A stretch of 64,000 bases of DNA, taken from positions 1-64,000 of the forward strand of contig JABDBM010000005.1 in assembly GCA_013288685.1 (NCBI GenBank). The letters run 5' to 3'. The first letter of the stretch is position 1, and every line of letters starts with the position of its first letter. The notes below the pieces were generated by a model that was not told the DNA's origin, searched no databases, and saw only the letters and a program-made list of their open reading frames with translations. The stretch is from Bacteroidota bacterium. Lineage in GTDB: Bacteria > Bacteroidota > Bacteroidia > Sphingobacteriales > Sphingobacteriaceae. The position numbers were made by a program, and so were the translations under genes. Positions 11,993 through 59,186 of the stretch are shown in pieces.

Positions 11993-12010
11993 ATAAGAAA
12001 TATTTCTTAT
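11993..12010. promoter_or_regulatory. BlaI-type operator, copy 1
   Basis: ATAAGAAATATTTCTTAT is a perfect 18-bp palindrome, identical to a second copy at 12066-12083. It is the copy nearer to the serine hydrolase gene. Both copies continue with GTTT on the plus strand. The two centres are 73 bases apart, about seven helical turns. Confidence 0.75.
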
Positions 12011-12058
12011 GTTTATTGCTTTGTTGACCAGTTAACTGCGGCAATTGTAAATAAAAAA

Positions 12059-12088
12059 TTTGGAGATAAGAAATATTTCTTATGTTTG
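12059..12088 (+). promoter_or_regulatory. blaI promoter with operator copy 2 inside it
   Basis: TTTG (12059-12062) and TATGTTTG (12081-12088) are 18 bases apart and match the -33/-7 consensus. The second 18-bp palindrome (12066-12083) fills the spacer, so repressor binding would block the promoter. The predicted start lies within a few bases of the blaI ATG at 12093, suggesting a leaderless or nearly leaderless message. Confidence 0.7.
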
Positions 12089-12092
12089 TATT

Positions 12093-12494
12093 ATGAAAGT
12101 TAAAAAAGACAAAGGATCGTCCACGGAACCCACCAAATCGGAACTGGAAATATTACAGGTATTGTGGCAGTTCGGCCCGCAGACGGCGCGTTTTATTAAT
12201 GATCACCTGAATAAGGAAAAACGTGAGGTAATCTATATGTCGACCTTAAAGCTAATGCAGATAATGGTGGAAAAAGGTTTCCTGAAAAAGGACGAAAGCC
12301 AGATGGCGCATATTTACCGGGCAGCGGTTGAAGAGGGGAAAACAAAAAGCATGCTGCTGGATAAGGTAGTGGATACGCTGTTTAACGGCTCGGCGGGTAG
12401 CCTGATGATGCAGCTACTGGGTAACAAAAAGCTATCGCCGCAGGAGATGGAAGAATATAAAGAACTGATTAAAAAAATTGACGAAAAACCATAA
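12093..12494 (+). CDS. BlaI/MecI/CopY family transcriptional repressor
   Basis: The 133-residue winged-helix repressor has the family opening TKSELEILQVLWQFGPQTAR and a dimerisation helix after about residue 75. Proteolysis by a partner M56 peptidase inactivates such repressors. The frame is open from a TTG at 12060, but the ATG at 12093 gives the standard N terminus and lies just behind the promoter. The stop is 4 bases before the M56 gene. Operator palindromes on both sides indicate self-control and control of the divergent serine hydrolase. Confidence 0.92.
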   Translation: MKVKKDKGSSTEPTKSELEILQVLWQFGPQTARFINDHLNKEKREVIYMSTLKLMQIMVEKGFLKKDESQMAHIYRAAVEEGKTKSMLLDKVVDTLFNGSAGSLMMQLLGNKKLSPQEMEEYKELIKKIDEKP

Positions 12495-12498
12495 TGCC

Positions 12499-14337
12499 AT
12501 GAATACTTCATTTTTAGCGCCATATATTTCGGACAATACCATTAAAGCCATCAGCTGGACAATGATCCATTCGCTATGGATTGGCTTAGTCATTGCCCTG
12601 TTAACAGGATTGCTGATAACCTTTAGCCGGAAAGCTACCGCCGACTTGCGTTACCGTTTGCTTTGTGGCTTGCTGGTGATTTTTATTATCGCTGTTGGTA
12701 TTACTTTTTATATTGAACTGGGAAAATCAACAGGAGTAAACGAAGGAACAGCAACCACAATTACAAATAACCACCCTGTAAAAGCCATTGTCGCACCGGC
12801 TAATTTTATACCGGCGCAGCAACGCCTCGTGAGCAAGGTTACGGCATTTATTGACCGGCAATTGGATGTGCTGTTTTTAATATGGTTGCTTTTCTTCGCG
12901 ATGAAGAGCTTAAAGATGATGGGCGGATTATGGTATATCCAAAGAATACGACGTCGCAAAATATCGGCTGTTGGCAAAGATATCAAACTTAAGCTCACCC
13001 TATTTGCCGAAAGGATGGGGATAAAGCGAAAAGTGGATTTGCTATATTCTGAATTGGTTAAAGTACCGGTAGCTGTAGGCTGGCTTAAACCGGTGATACT
13101 ATTGCCCGCTGGTATTTTTTTACAGCTAACCCCCGAACAAATTGACAGCGTCTTATTGCACGAACTGGCTCATATCCGCCGCCGCGATTACCTCGTTAAT
13201 ATGCTGCAGGGTTTGGCTGAAGCTGTTTTCTTTTTTAACCCTGCATTGTTGTGGTTGTCGTCGCTCATCCGTGCCGAAAGGGAGGCTTGTTGTGATGATA
13301 TGGTATTGTGCCGCACCAGCCGGAAGGCAAACTACCTGGAGGCCCTGCTGGCTTTCGGGATGATGAATGGCAATCAAACTAACCTGGCGATGAGTTTAGG
13401 CTCGGGAAACGAGTTAAAAAACAGGCTAAAAAGGATGGTGAACCAGGAAAACGAAAAACTAAGCATAACAGAACGGGCAGTTTTAATAACAGGGTTACTG
13501 TTGTTAACAATTTTTACCATACTACCAAAAGCCGATCAGGCAGCAAAGCACATTGCCCGCGGGTTTGTGAACAGCTTTGTGCCCTCAACTAAAAAGGCTG
13601 TTGATGCTGCTTCGGCATCCGAAAACCGAAAAGCTTCTGCGAATCTGCGAAAGCGTAAGGAAGTGGATACCACATCAAAACGGGATACGGTTATCCGATT
13701 TACCAGTGTGCTGTTTAAACAAAACGATGCCGACATAGCCAATGCCGATATGAGCGCAATGGACGATAAAGGAAATATATATCACCTAATTGTTGCTGAT
13801 AATAAGTTAACCAGCCTTGAAATAAACAATATAAAAGTAATAGACAGCCAACTGCCTGGATATGAATACATGGTTAGGCAGATTGACAGAGAACTGGCAA
13901 TGAAAAAGCGCGTAAGAGAGCAGGATAATGCCGGATTAAAAGCAACATCGCCGGCTGCCAAATTTAAGGGCACTGTGCCACCGGCAGACCAGCCTTTTGT
14001 AAAAAAGTGGAGAACTGGCGATCCTGAACCGAAATTTATGATGGCCGGGGCAAAGCCTGTAAAAAAATATCACGATAATACTGAAATAACAGCCGACCAA
14101 CAACGCGCACGCGGTGTAATAGCCGCCCTGGTATCCGAAAAGATTATAGCAAGCCCTGCAGAGCTGCAATGGTTTGGCCTGAGCGACACCGAACTGGTTG
14201 TTAATGGCCAAAAGCAACCAGAAGCGCTGCATCAAAAGCTTAAAGAACAGTATGGTATAAAACCGCAATACGGGCTGTACTATGGGCCGGTTAAAATGTA
14301 TGGGACGGGGGTGTTTTTGGATAGGGGGGATTTGTAA
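12499..14337 (+). CDS. BlaR1-like M56 family membrane metallopeptidase
   Basis: The 612-residue product has four N-terminal membrane helices. The zinc site is His221-Glu-Leu-Ala-His225 (HELAHIRRRD), with a downstream EREACCDDM segment giving the third ligand, and a final helix lies near residue 330. In classical BlaR1 the extracellular C-terminal domain is a penicillin-binding sensor. Here the 280-residue C-terminal part shows no SxxK site or PBP similarity and contains a Lys/Arg-rich stretch, so the signal is probably different. It follows blaI by 4 bases and would cleave that repressor. The ATG at 12499 is chosen over an upstream TTG. Confidence 0.88.
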   Translation: MNTSFLAPYISDNTIKAISWTMIHSLWIGLVIALLTGLLITFSRKATADLRYRLLCGLLVIFIIAVGITFYIELGKSTGVNEGTATTITNNHPVKAIVAPANFIPAQQRLVSKVTAFIDRQLDVLFLIWLLFFAMKSLKMMGGLWYIQRIRRRKISAVGKDIKLKLTLFAERMGIKRKVDLLYSELVKVPVAVGWLKPVILLPAGIFLQLTPEQIDSVLLHELAHIRRRDYLVNMLQGLAEAVFFFNPALLWLSSLIRAEREACCDDMVLCRTSRKANYLEALLAFGMMNGNQTNLAMSLGSGNELKNRLKRMVNQENEKLSITERAVLITGLLLLTIFTILPKADQAAKHIARGFVNSFVPSTKKAVDAASASENRKASANLRKRKEVDTTSKRDTVIRFTSVLFKQNDADIANADMSAMDDKGNIYHLIVADNKLTSLEINNIKVIDSQLPGYEYMVRQIDRELAMKKRVREQDNAGLKATSPAAKFKGTVPPADQPFVKKWRTGDPEPKFMMAGAKPVKKYHDNTEITADQQRARGVIAALVSEKIIASPAELQWFGLSDTELVVNGQKQPEALHQKLKEQYGIKPQYGLYYGPVKMYGTGVFLDRGDL

Positions 14338-55261: not shown

Positions 55262-56662
55262 TTAAAGTTCAATTTTTTGATGCTGATAGGGTATTTCAAC
55301 CGCAGGAAATCCCTTATTCAATATTTTTTGTCTAAAGTGTTGCTGCACTTCGTACTCGCCATGTACCAGGAATATCTTTTTTACTTTTTGTGGCTGCTGC
55401 CCCGCTATAAAATGCAACAGATCGTCATAATCGCCATGTGCGCTCATTGATTTTATAGATTCAACACCCGATTTTACTTCGTATTTTTCTCCGAAAATAA
55501 ATACGTCCTTGTCTCCCCTTAACAAATGGCCACCGAGCGAATTGGGTTCGCAGTAGCCCACCATTAATATGGTGCAGTTAGGGTTGCCAATATTATTTTT
55601 AATGTGATGCTTTACGCGCCCGGCTTCGGCCATTCCTGATGAGGAAATGATAACGCATGGTGTTGCATCGTCATTCAGCGCTTTCGATTCATCGGTTGTT
55701 TGCACAAATCTTAACCCTTTAAATCCAAACGGATTGGCATCAATTTTTAAAACATCGCTAACTTCTTTATTATATACTTCGGGATGTCCCATTAGTACAC
55801 GCGTAGCTTTTTCGGATAGTGGGCTATCTACATAGTAATGCAAATCGGGCAAAATGCCTTTTAACTCCAGCGAATTAAGCGCATATAATAACTCCTGTGT
55901 GCGGCCAACACTAAAGGCAGGGATAATTAACTTTCCTTTTTGATCAAGGCAGGTGCGTTTTATTACCTCCAGCAATTTATCTTCAATGGCGCCAATATCC
56001 TTATGGAGCGAATCGCCATAAGTCGATTCCAACAAAATATAATCAGCTTGCGGAAAAGGCTCAGGGTTCTTTAGCAGGATATCGCCATAACGGCCTACAT
56101 CGCCGCTAAAAGTAATATGGGTTTGCCGCGCGCTTTCGGTTATGGTTAAATGCATAGCAGCACTGCCCACCAAATGCCCTGCATCGGTAAACATAAATTT
56201 TATGGATGGCGTTATGGCAAATTCCTGGTGATAATCAACTGTTTTAAATAGTAAGAGGGCGGCGGTTACATCGTCCTCGGTATACAAAGCAGTTAATAAA
56301 GGCAGGTTCTTTTTGATGCGATGCTTGTTGCTATAAGCCGTATCCTGCTCTTGTATCCTGGCCGAGTCCGTCAGTAATATTTTCACCAGGTCGAATGTTG
56401 GCGGCGTGCAAAATATTTGCCCTTTAAAGCCTTCGGTAACCAGGCGGGGAATTAACCCGCAATGGTCAATATGAGCGTGCGATAATATCAGGTGGTCAAC
56501 TTTTTCGGGATTAAAGCCAAAGTGTTCATTCAAATCTTCGGTATGCTCGCCCATACCCTGAAACATGCCGCAATCCAATAAAATGCGGGTGCCATCGTTA
56601 AGTTGCAATAAATGCTTGCTGCCGGTAACTGTGCGGGCAGCGCCATGAAAAGTTATTGTCAT
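55262..56662 (-). CDS. MBL-fold RNA-processing-type metallohydrolase with beta-CASP domain
   Basis: The 466-residue cytoplasmic protein shows the zinc motif His62-Ala-His64-Ile-Asp66-His67 (SHAHIDHCGL), then STYGDSLH, the beta-CASP insert (PAFSVGRTQELLYALN) and C-terminal MSAHGDYDDL and LVHGEYEVQ. It belongs to the Ysh1/CPSF73-like bacterial RNase group, which cleave RNA. The N-terminal KH domains of archaeal members are absent. It diverges from the second blaI across a long hairpin. Confidence 0.9.
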   Translation of the reverse strand: MTITFHGAARTVTGSKHLLQLNDGTRILLDCGMFQGMGEHTEDLNEHFGFNPEKVDHLILSHAHIDHCGLIPRLVTEGFKGQIFCTPPTFDLVKILLTDSARIQEQDTAYSNKHRIKKNLPLLTALYTEDDVTAALLLFKTVDYHQEFAITPSIKFMFTDAGHLVGSAAMHLTITESARQTHITFSGDVGRYGDILLKNPEPFPQADYILLESTYGDSLHKDIGAIEDKLLEVIKRTCLDQKGKLIIPAFSVGRTQELLYALNSLELKGILPDLHYYVDSPLSEKATRVLMGHPEVYNKEVSDVLKIDANPFGFKGLRFVQTTDESKALNDDATPCVIISSSGMAEAGRVKHHIKNNIGNPNCTILMVGYCEPNSLGGHLLRGDKDVFIFGEKYEVKSGVESIKSMSAHGDYDDLLHFIAGQQPQKVKKIFLVHGEYEVQQHFRQKILNKGFPAVEIPYQHQKIEL

Positions 56663-56910: not shown

Positions 56911-56926
56911 AACTAAGTACTTAGTT
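56911..56926. promoter_or_regulatory. BlaI-type operator of the second blaI
   Basis: AACTAAGTACTTAGTT is a perfect 16-bp palindrome that overlaps the -33 TTG of the downstream promoter. It differs from the ATAAGAAAT operator of the first blaI, so the two repressors are probably insulated. Confidence 0.65.
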
Positions 56927-57135: not shown

Positions 57136-57507
57136 ATGGAAATTAAAGAATTAACCCGCGCCGAAGAGCAAATAATGCAGATACTGTGGCAGTTGCAAAA
57201 AGGCTATGTAAAAGAGGTGATAGATATTTTACCCGAGCCCAAGCCCGCTTATAATACCGTATCAACCATTATAAGGATACTGGAAACCAAGGGCTTTGTA
57301 CGGCATACAGCCTATGGCAAAAGCCACGAATATTATCCGGTTGTAAGCAAAGATCAATATCAAAACTTTGCTACTGATAAACTGATGAACGGTTATTTTG
57401 ATAACTCGGTAAAGCGTATGTTCTCGTACTTTGTGAAGAAGGAGAAGATTGACCTTAAAGAGGCCGATGAGATTATGAAACTGATTGAGAAACTAAAAGA
57501 AAAATAA
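57136..57507 (+). CDS. BlaI/MecI/CopY family transcriptional repressor
   Basis: The 123-residue winged-helix protein has LTRAEEQIMQILWQLQKGYV and a C-terminal dimer helix ending LIEKLKEK. It starts an operon with an M56 peptidase that begins 2 bases after its stop. A perfect palindrome overlaps its promoter, pointing to self-repression relieved by cleavage. It is only distantly similar to the first BlaI in the window. Confidence 0.92.
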   Translation: MEIKELTRAEEQIMQILWQLQKGYVKEVIDILPEPKPAYNTVSTIIRILETKGFVRHTAYGKSHEYYPVVSKDQYQNFATDKLMNGYFDNSVKRMFSYFVKKEKIDLKEADEIMKLIEKLKEK

Positions 57508-57509
57508 TC

Positions 57510-59186
57510 ATGACCTGGTGGCAATATCTACTGCTGGTAAACATTTACCTGGTGCTGTTTTACTGCTTTTATGTTTTACTGCTGCGCAGGGAAACATTTT
57601 TTCAACTCAATCGCATTTACCTGGTATCGGCAGCATTGTTGTCATTTTTTATCCCGCTAATACAATCCGACTGGGTGAAAAATTTATTTATTACCCAACA
57701 GGTAAAATATACAATTTACGGCAGCCCGGTAATGCTGTACCAATTCCGTCCTATCAGCAATACGCATATAACCATAGGCCAGGTATTGGTGGTTGTTTAC
57801 CTTACGGGCATTGTTTTTTTAATGGCAAGGCTTGCCTGGCAATTAATTAGCATAAACCGCCAAATAGAAAAGCCCGAACCGCAGGCAGCCTATTCTTTTT
57901 TTAAAAAAGTAAAGCTTGGCGAAGATGTGGAAAATAACGAGGTAATAGCCGCTCACGAACACGTACATGCTCAGCAATGGCATTCGGCCGACGTGCTGAT
58001 GGTGGAGGCGGTAATGATCATCAACTGGTTTAACCCGGTGGTATACTTTTATCGTTTTGCCATCAAACACATCCACGAGTTTATTGCCGACCAGCAAGCC
58101 GTTAAAGCTGGCACCAACAAAGCAGATTATGCTTTACTATTGTTAAGCCAAACATTTAACGCCCCTGCGCATCAGCTGGCAAATCCGTTTTTTAATCATA
58201 GCCTGCTAAAACAGCGTATAATGATGTTGCAAAAAAACAAATCGCACCGCATAGCTTTGGTTAAATACGGTTTATCGGCGCCGCTGTTTATACTGATGCT
58301 CATCTTATCATCGGCTACTATTAATAACAGCAAAACCATTCGCATCATTAACAAAAAAGCGCAGTATATTTTTCTTAGTTCTGCACTAAGCGATAAAGGG
58401 AGCGCAAGCAACGGCAGGCAGGTTACCCAGGTAACTTTTGAAACCACCATAGATAAAACATCGGGCAGGGCCGATACCTTAAAAAAAGAGCGCGTTAAAT
58501 CAAGAAAGGCTGTGCCTGAACCTATAACGATAGACGAGCCACTTTTTACGTCGGTTGAAAATCCGCCTGAATTTCCCGGAGGTATTGATGCTTTTTATAA
58601 TTTTCTGGCCAAAAACATAAAATATCCGGCAGACAGCCGCGAAAAAGGGATACAGGGTAAAGTGATTATCCAATTTATTGTGGAGCAGGACGGAACATTG
58701 AGCGCTTTAAAGGTAGTGCGCGGCGTTGCAACCGATATAGACCAGGAAGCGTTACGTGTTTTGCAAACGTCGCCTAAATGGACACCTGGCGTTCAGAACG
58801 GTAGAGCGGTTAGGGTGCAATATAATGTTCCGATTTCGTTTACGATGACTGATGGCAAACAACCCGCATCAACGCAAAGTAAAACTGGCGCTGTAATTGA
58901 AGATAAAGCGCGCAAGTCGTTATTTCTTACTTTAACTACTGATAGTAAACTCAAAAACGATACCGGAAAAAATATTGTGATTCGCTGCGTAACAACCGAC
59001 CCTTTGGCGGGACATCCGCTTTATATTGTTGACGGCACTGAACGTTCTGATTTAACAACGCTCAACCCTGCTGATATTGAAAGTGTCGATGTGCTTAAAA
59101 ACCAACCGCCTGCGTTGTATGGAAACAAGGGCATCAATGGAGTTATCCGCATCACAACAAAAAAGATCAAGCAGGCAGGGCATTAA
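57510..59186 (+). CDS. M56 peptidase fused to TonB C-terminal and plug-like domains
   Basis: The 558-residue product has N-terminal membrane helices (about residues 3-30, 34-50, 87-115). The M56 zinc motif is His149-Glu-His-Val-His153 with a later HEFIADQQA (Glu ligand), and one helix lies near 255-275. A TonB C-terminal domain follows (about 352-447: PPEFPGGIDAFYNFLAKNI, GKVIIQFIVEQDGTL). It ends with a plug-like segment (about 488-552: LYIVDG, NPADIESVDVLKNQPPALYG, GVIRITTKK), close to the plug signature of SusC in this window. It would cleave BlaI and may sense or energise an outer-membrane partner. The last part is unusual. Confidence 0.85.
   Translation: MTWWQYLLLVNIYLVLFYCFYVLLLRRETFFQLNRIYLVSAALLSFFIPLIQSDWVKNLFITQQVKYTIYGSPVMLYQFRPISNTHITIGQVLVVVYLTGIVFLMARLAWQLISINRQIEKPEPQAAYSFFKKVKLGEDVENNEVIAAHEHVHAQQWHSADVLMVEAVMIINWFNPVVYFYRFAIKHIHEFIADQQAVKAGTNKADYALLLLSQTFNAPAHQLANPFFNHSLLKQRIMMLQKNKSHRIALVKYGLSAPLFILMLILSSATINNSKTIRIINKKAQYIFLSSALSDKGSASNGRQVTQVTFETTIDKTSGRADTLKKERVKSRKAVPEPITIDEPLFTSVENPPEFPGGIDAFYNFLAKNIKYPADSREKGIQGKVIIQFIVEQDGTLSALKVVRGVATDIDQEALRVLQTSPKWTPGVQNGRAVRVQYNVPISFTMTDGKQPASTQSKTGAVIEDKARKSLFLTLTTDSKLKNDTGKNIVIRCVTTDPLAGHPLYIVDGTERSDLTTLNPADIESVDVLKNQPPALYGNKGINGVIRITTKKIKQAGH

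Follow-up and report, generated by a model that had tools for sequence, protein, structure and literature searches.

The window, i.e. the whole stretch of 64,000 nucleotides that was analysed (contig JABDBM010000005.1 of a Bacteroidota bacterium, family Sphingobacteriaceae), carries a blaI-type repressor gene and, after a gap of 2 nt between its stop and the next start, a gene for an M56-type protein. The features of the locus, given as coordinates, strand and description, are:

55262-56662, minus strand: divergent metallo-hydrolase gene, on the other side of the predicted operator from blaI
56912..56925, no strand: predicted BlaI operator ACTAAGTACTTAGT, ACTAA-N4-TTAGT, a perfect palindrome between blaI and the divergent metallo-hydrolase gene
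57136..57507, plus strand: blaI-type repressor gene, 123 aa (Penicillinase_R, 106.9 bits)
57510-59186, plus strand: ORF of the M56 protein, 558 aa
57510..58379, plus strand: M56 zinc protease and membrane part, residues 1-290 (Pfam Peptidase_M56)
57954-57968, plus strand: HEHVH, residues 149-153, within the M56 part
58077-58079, plus strand: codon of E190, M56 part
58545..58847, plus strand: TonB C-terminal domain (TonB_C), residues 346-446 (Pfam TonB_C, solved TonB match, model)
58848..59009, plus strand: variable linker, residues 447-500 (mean pairwise identity 0.17, pLDDT <50)
59010..59168, plus strand: predicted half-plug, residues 501-553 (Pfam Plug and SusC models, predicted fold, conservation, selection)

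A first-pass annotation of this DNA had described a peptidase (HEHVH), a TonB C-terminal domain and a plug-like tail in one protein, and this is confirmed by Pfam matches above the curated cut-offs for Peptidase_M56 (residues 141-240; 42.9 bits, cut-off 31), TonB_C (residues 369-445; 67.6 bits, cut-off 24.6) and Plug (residues 450-545; 36.9 bits, cut-off 23.9), and by the motifs, those of the tail being present letter for letter. The first part has the HExxH motif, a downstream glutamate and a score above cut-off that define the M56 family; H149, E150, H153 and E190, the last of which we take to be the third zinc ligand, are unchanged throughout 35 aligned orthologs, and the closest solved relative is BlaR1 (E 0.0048). 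The middle part matches a solved TonB (E 2.8e-5), keeps the usual TonB_C motifs in the same alignment and is confidently folded in the full-length predicted model. M56, TonB_C and Plug are the sole Pfam matches at E up to 1, hence neither a penicillin-binding sensor domain nor an STN signalling domain was matched at that threshold.

At its N-terminus, where TonB has its ExbB-contacting anchor, the protein has the M56 membrane region, for which the low-confidence full-length model gives helices at residues 3-24, 31-52, 89-120 and 246-273. This model (mean pLDDT 62.4) is poor over the membrane part and was left unused for domain contacts, so that the topology rests on homology; charge counts point to neither orientation. 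By analogy with BlaR1, TonB_C and the half-plug are likely located on the periplasmic side. Judged by sequence, the two genes form a predicted Bacteroidota signalling system of BlaR1/BlaI type, in which the M56 protein carries TonB_C and a half-plug.

The tail has SusC/RagA chains as its closest solved relatives (best E 9.2e-7), and NCBIfam SusC/RagA models match residues 486-554 with scores short of their own cut-offs, which were chosen with complete receptors in view. In a separate model of residues 479-558 (mean pLDDT 73.2) disorder covers the first 20 residues, and the remainder, mostly at pLDDT 79-92 by block, has the order strand-strand-strand-helix-strand. A Foldseek search of this model against the PDB returned TonB-dependent receptors in all of the first 45 rows, with SusC chains leading (best 8aa4, rmsd 1.8 over 53 columns, E 0.0063; no row at E <=0.001); VIA-align on these matches reached a low Z of 5.2 at best, and two of 21 rows were unrelated folds. 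BtuB (1nqe) was aligned with the tail by VIA-align from BtuB residue 70 onward, for which reason we speak of a second half. The structural likeness to receptor plugs that the first-pass annotation had proposed is therefore borne out for the predicted fold of a second half, at Foldseek significance that stays short of E 0.001, and the sequence support for plug identity is stronger than the fold support. By both lines, residues 501-553 are the predicted second half of a SusC-type plug.

A reading of the tail as a whole plug is not supported, on account of residues 447-500, which are unconserved and of low model confidence, and of the start of the BtuB alignment at residue 70. A decayed first half in this stretch is possible, since the Pfam Plug match spans the linker too (profile positions 4-107) and a T/I-GAV motif, similar to one of SusC plugs, occurs in 11 of 79 ortholog linkers (mean of shuffled linkers 0.27). 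For a TonB-box-like motif the linker of the window protein gave no match to the search pattern; six of the 79 ortholog linkers did (shuffled linkers, mean 0.05 and at most 2), with LDEVVVIG in L073 as the clearest, by a pattern that was composed after the linkers had been read and with the matches in L031/L032 and L072/L073 coming from near relatives. We take this motif, where it occurs, as a putative vestige of an ancestral SusC-type receptor. For the window protein, in which only the second half of a plug is conserved and a TonB-box-like motif is absent, the earlier suggestion that the protein imitates the plug in order to sense TonB engagement loses weight; those six orthologs do have such a motif.

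Orthologs were defined as proteins that scored >330 bits to the M56 part of the window protein, which gave 79 (the source genome's own and 78 others), the nearest named ones being from Mucilaginibacter, to which genus the source genome probably belongs; the M56 protein was matched in 98 of 149 related genomes at 1e-30, and in 120 of 151 genomes of the order at 1e-60. A BlaI-type ORF lies upstream of the M56 gene in all 68 named orthologs (68/68). TonB_C is present in one copy in 45 orthologs, in two copies in 31 and in three copies in three. The conservation of the tail had been set beforehand as one of two points, next to structural likeness to plugs, on which its reading would stand or fall, and the tail is conserved: a search with nothing but the window tail as query detected it in 66 of 79 orthologs, and an iterated profile in 76 (all except L064, L083 and L090), the latter count being partly circular as the profile was trained on ortholog tails, and the former not. 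Among the 35 orthologs with one TonB_C and a tail each (L095 left out), the M56 part had a mean pairwise identity of 0.63, TonB_C 0.55, residues 501-553 0.47 and each linker 0.17, i.e. among the three domains the tail has the lowest conservation; two of its positions, I523 and G538, never vary, and D508, G509, Y537, G544, V545 and K551 hardly do. A further alignment comprised 64 tails (two left out). In eight close ortholog pairs, not all of them independent, dN/dS of the tail was 0.03-0.29. These values mark the tail as a maintained domain that is, by its substitution pattern, under purifying selection.

The domain search in other genomes that had been proposed for M56-TonB proteins with and without the plug tail found both forms across the phylum. 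It covered 104 M56 genes in 57 genomes (104 of the 111 listed rows above the Pfam cut-off and outside the source genome; one of the seven rows omitted is an ortholog), all 104 of which have HExxH, and 99 of which have a BlaI-type ORF just upstream. Our own profiles detect TonB_C alone in 39, only the half-plug in 11, both in five and neither in 49; the tail thus recurs in 16 of 104, in varied order, and of the five with both, three have the plug ahead of TonB_C, one has it behind TonB_C and one has a mixed order. Pfam matches on the 104 C-terminal parts (E up to 0.01) comprise TonB_C (44), Plug (8), CarbopepD_reg_2 (7), ExbD (2) and POTRA (1). The 49 genes with neither module, together with the three of 79 orthologs that lack the tail, show that the sensor parts are exchangeable, and the domain combination of the window protein is, on these profile matches, one member of a modular set. 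The domain observation of the first-pass annotation is therefore right, and wider than its reader could see.

Further M56 and plug-bearing proteins were observed along the way. The window holds another blaI-M56 pair of a different type (11995-14337) with no TonB_C or plug match, and the palindrome AAGAAATATTTCTT occurs twice near its blaI start, at 11995 and 12068. In the source genome, a BlaI-M56 paralog on contig C14 (L099, 1700-4277) has its M56 frame split into two ORFs and, by eye, two plug-like segments, one of which was matched by the tail search; no ACTA-type site was found there, and a search for TACGA-N6-TCGTA sites found none, while two TACGA-N5-TCGTA repeats are seen by eye before its blaI. 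On contig C10 (L098, 3163-3224), ACTATAAAAATAGT occurs three times ahead of a BlaI gene with two consecutive M56 genes behind it; on contig C104 (L100, 3206-7660), a 941-aa M56 protein has C-terminal repeats of about 30 residues, a long run by eye, and is followed by a 535-aa protein with repeats of the same kind. The source genome (incomplete) gave 52 plug matches, and those in L366, L368 and L369 lie inside barrel-less proteins that are A2M-like by eye.

The predicted operator ACTAAGTACTTAGT is the sole ACTAA-N4-TTAGT in the window. For the named orthologs, 68 of 72 loci entered the operator test (L172, L176, L177 and L178 dropped): the core ACTA-N6-TAGT lies between 800 and 340 nt upstream of the M56 gene in 60/68 (elsewhere, 0.010 per 460 nt) and is absent from the tested stretch in 8/68, and the longer form ACTAA-N4-TTAGT lies before blaI in 59/68. 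In an open search for spaced palindromes at 99 blaI-M56 operons of the phylum, ACTA-N6-TAGT ranks first (48/99; 0.13 expected), and TACA-N2-TGTA, which is quoted as the operator of CopY, BlaI and MecI in an excerpt of PMC7253601, comes further down (17/99). In Clostridium thermocellum, paired GTCTAT/GACTAT half-sites are bound by two BlaI proteins, according to an excerpt of PMC8457756. Single sites in the source genome are at chance frequency, both as exact ACTAA-N4-TTAGT (8, reversed control 12) and with two mismatches (11, control 20), and we therefore relied on sites that are kept across genomes or stand in tandem. Tandem ACTAA-N4-TTAGT, i.e. two sites <=30 nt apart, is found in 60 of 100 genomes of the genus, and the reversed pattern in none (0/100).

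The genes beside the tandem sites were surveyed at 50 loci with 51 site clusters, out of a longer list that is itself smaller than the full set of tandem sites: a TPR gene at 14 clusters, a second blaI-M56 operon at 10, a MacB/FtsX permease at 9, a GLPGLI gene at 7, the window-type blaI-M56 operon at 5, receptor-like outer-membrane genes at 3, and at one each a TonB gene, a gene for a TonB_C-half-plug protein without M56, and a DUF4249 gene. Since the families were named from the same 51 clusters, it is in part circular that no others appear, and completely so for the four singletons TonB, TonB_C-half-plug, DUF4249 and SusC. About twenty listed tandem sites lie outside the survey, most of which were assigned by their spacer to the second blaI-M56 operon. 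In representatives, curated models back GLPGLI (172 bits), DUF4249, OMP_b-brl_3, TonB_C and MacB_PCD/FtsX. Behind six of the seven GLPGLI genes lie members of a single gene family, in one of which a carboxypeptidase-regulatory domain scores just above the Pfam cut-off and the part read gave no barrel match; we infer that it encodes an outer-membrane protein. The protein without M56 (L342, 847-1482, minus strand; 212 aa, signal-peptide-like start by eye) is encoded about 20 nt from its tandem operator. At L319, L349 and other TPR loci, only a few nt separate the tandem operator from the start codon of the conserved TPR gene; the small gene on the opposite side (about 95 aa, no Pfam match) is conserved too.

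Within the source genome, tandem sites are found upstream of the second blaI-M56 operon and of a permease (L311, L314), and single sites precede the window operon, a TPR gene (L310) that resembles the tandem-site TPR genes by eye, and an OMP/plug gene (L313, 74 nt). As two different blaI-M56 operons share the operator, the candidate regulon is not creditable to the window pair alone. The link that the first-pass annotation drew between BlaI control and outer-membrane transport finds support in the predicted operators before GLPGLI, receptor-like and TonB genes, and is qualified by the commonest targets, i.e. the TPR gene, the second blaI-M56 operon and MacB-like permeases.

The architecture, its conservation, the predicted plug fold and, by sequence statistics, the operator with its gene neighbours are established here, and the following account may be built on them. 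BlaI on ACTAA-N4-TTAGT operators would repress a small envelope regulon in addition to its own operon. By analogy with BlaR1, the M56 protein would span the inner membrane, with the zinc protease in the cytosol and TonB_C, a flexible linker and the half-plug as its periplasmic part. The trigger would be an altered TonB/receptor state of the envelope; most likely, TonB_C would contact outer-membrane receptors at their TonB box or at a surface of their plug, and the half-plug would be a putative built-in competitor or partner. TonB_C would most likely report receptor contact or compete with the half-plug. The homology to BlaR1, which cleaves BlaI once its outer sensor is triggered (as described in an excerpt of PMC7593790), argues that the activated M56 protease should likewise cut the neighbouring BlaI, and this would free the MacB-like permeases, the GLPGLI operons, the TPR gene and at times TonB. 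A BlaR1/BlaI-type pair that senses the TonB/receptor state via TonB_C and half-plug is the account we favour, tentatively and at a little under an even chance; the mechanism of the first-pass annotation, for its part, is possible and partly supported. Against the favoured account count the lack of a TonB-box-like motif in the window protein, the exchangeable sensor parts, the operator common to two blaI-M56 operons, the eight named loci with no ACTA-N6-TAGT in the tested stretch and the chance-level frequency of single sites; among the points in its favour is L342, in which TonB_C and half-plug occur beside a tandem operator in a protein with no M56 part.

A general envelope-stress signal would also be compatible with the MacB-like and TPR targets, and the pair might be of BlaR1 type with TonB_C and half-plug as only general periplasmic binding modules, with envelope damage or an antimicrobial as signal and MacB-like export as response. 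The permeases and the TPR gene at the tandem sites would fit this, as would the half-plug-like segments in other barrel-less proteins of the source genome and the widely varying C-terminal parts of M56 proteins; it is, however, somewhat unlikely in view of the receptor-like, GLPGLI and TonB genes among the targets, the TonB-box-like motif kept in some orthologs and the usual motifs kept by TonB_C. A competition of TonB_C with TonB, in which the M56 protein would tether receptors or take their TonB boxes and the half-plug would have no sensing role, draws on the well-conserved TonB_C in its one to three copies and on the 39 phylum genes that have TonB_C without half-plug. We consider it improbable, since the half-plug is kept in most orthologs under purifying selection and occurs without TonB_C in 11 of the 104 phylum genes. 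That the tail is a functionless relic of recombination with a SusC gene could be argued from its lower conservation and its absence in three orthologs, but its dN/dS and its recurrence across the phylum, in varied order, disfavour this, and we regard it as very improbable.

Beyond the sensing of the TonB/receptor state by the window pair, a wider reading, to our mind unlikely, would be a phylum-wide BlaI-M56 surveillance family with sensors made from import-machinery parts (TonB_C, SusC half-plug with or without TonB box, carboxypeptidase-like receptor extension, ExbD, POTRA) that read how well receptors, TonB and motor engage; cleavage of BlaI would release exporters, receptor-like proteins and TonB in an envelope stress response by repressor proteolysis.

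Bacteroidota have dozens of TonB-dependent receptors per cell. The gene pair offers a direct handle on how they notice that import is working or failing, with its putative sensor, repressor, predicted operator and predicted gene set, and if the sensing reading is true, it suggests that bacteria may monitor the import machinery with recycled parts thereof. A label of 'TonB-dependent receptor plug' on a barrel-less protein can mark a non-receptor.

Among the papers listed from the searched literature, which leaves most subscription journals outside, none was seen on an M56 protein with TonB or plug parts, and no paper has GLPGLI together with BlaI; domain databases may well list the M56-TonB_C-Plug architecture. 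'Peptidase M56' and TonB occur together in one listed paper, a survey of another organism. Other hits were set aside on their excerpts: 'M56' is a reagent code in that of PMC12578637, which has no passage on BlaI, those of PMC10470040 and PMC12915585 are table annotations and not relevant, and M56 is absent from that of PMC12204202. An M56 protease with BlaI is a known kind; a sensor of TonB-system parts together with an operator-defined regulon, as predicted here, appears in none of the papers listed.

The pair resembles the BlaR1/MecR1-BlaI/MecI systems of beta-lactam sensing in its M56 zinc protease with an extra C-terminal part, the adjacent BlaI-type repressor gene and the palindromic sites before it, and differs in having TonB_C and the predicted half-plug as sensor in place of a penicillin-binding domain, and a core operator ACTA-N6-TAGT, in the genus mostly ACTAA-N4-TTAGT. 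With TonB it shares the C-terminal domain, which in the M56 proteins is carried by a protease and in up to three copies. It has the predicted second half of the plug in common with SusC/RagA receptors, and in a few orthologs a TonB-box-like motif, whereas the window protein has no barrel, conserved first plug half or TonB-box-like motif, and has a predicted inner-membrane protease attached. Like FecA-FecR-sigma signalling, as outlined in an excerpt of PMC7593790, it would report on outer-membrane receptors via periplasmic contact and regulated proteolysis, here with a repressor instead of an anti-sigma factor and with an M56 protein that has no STN match.
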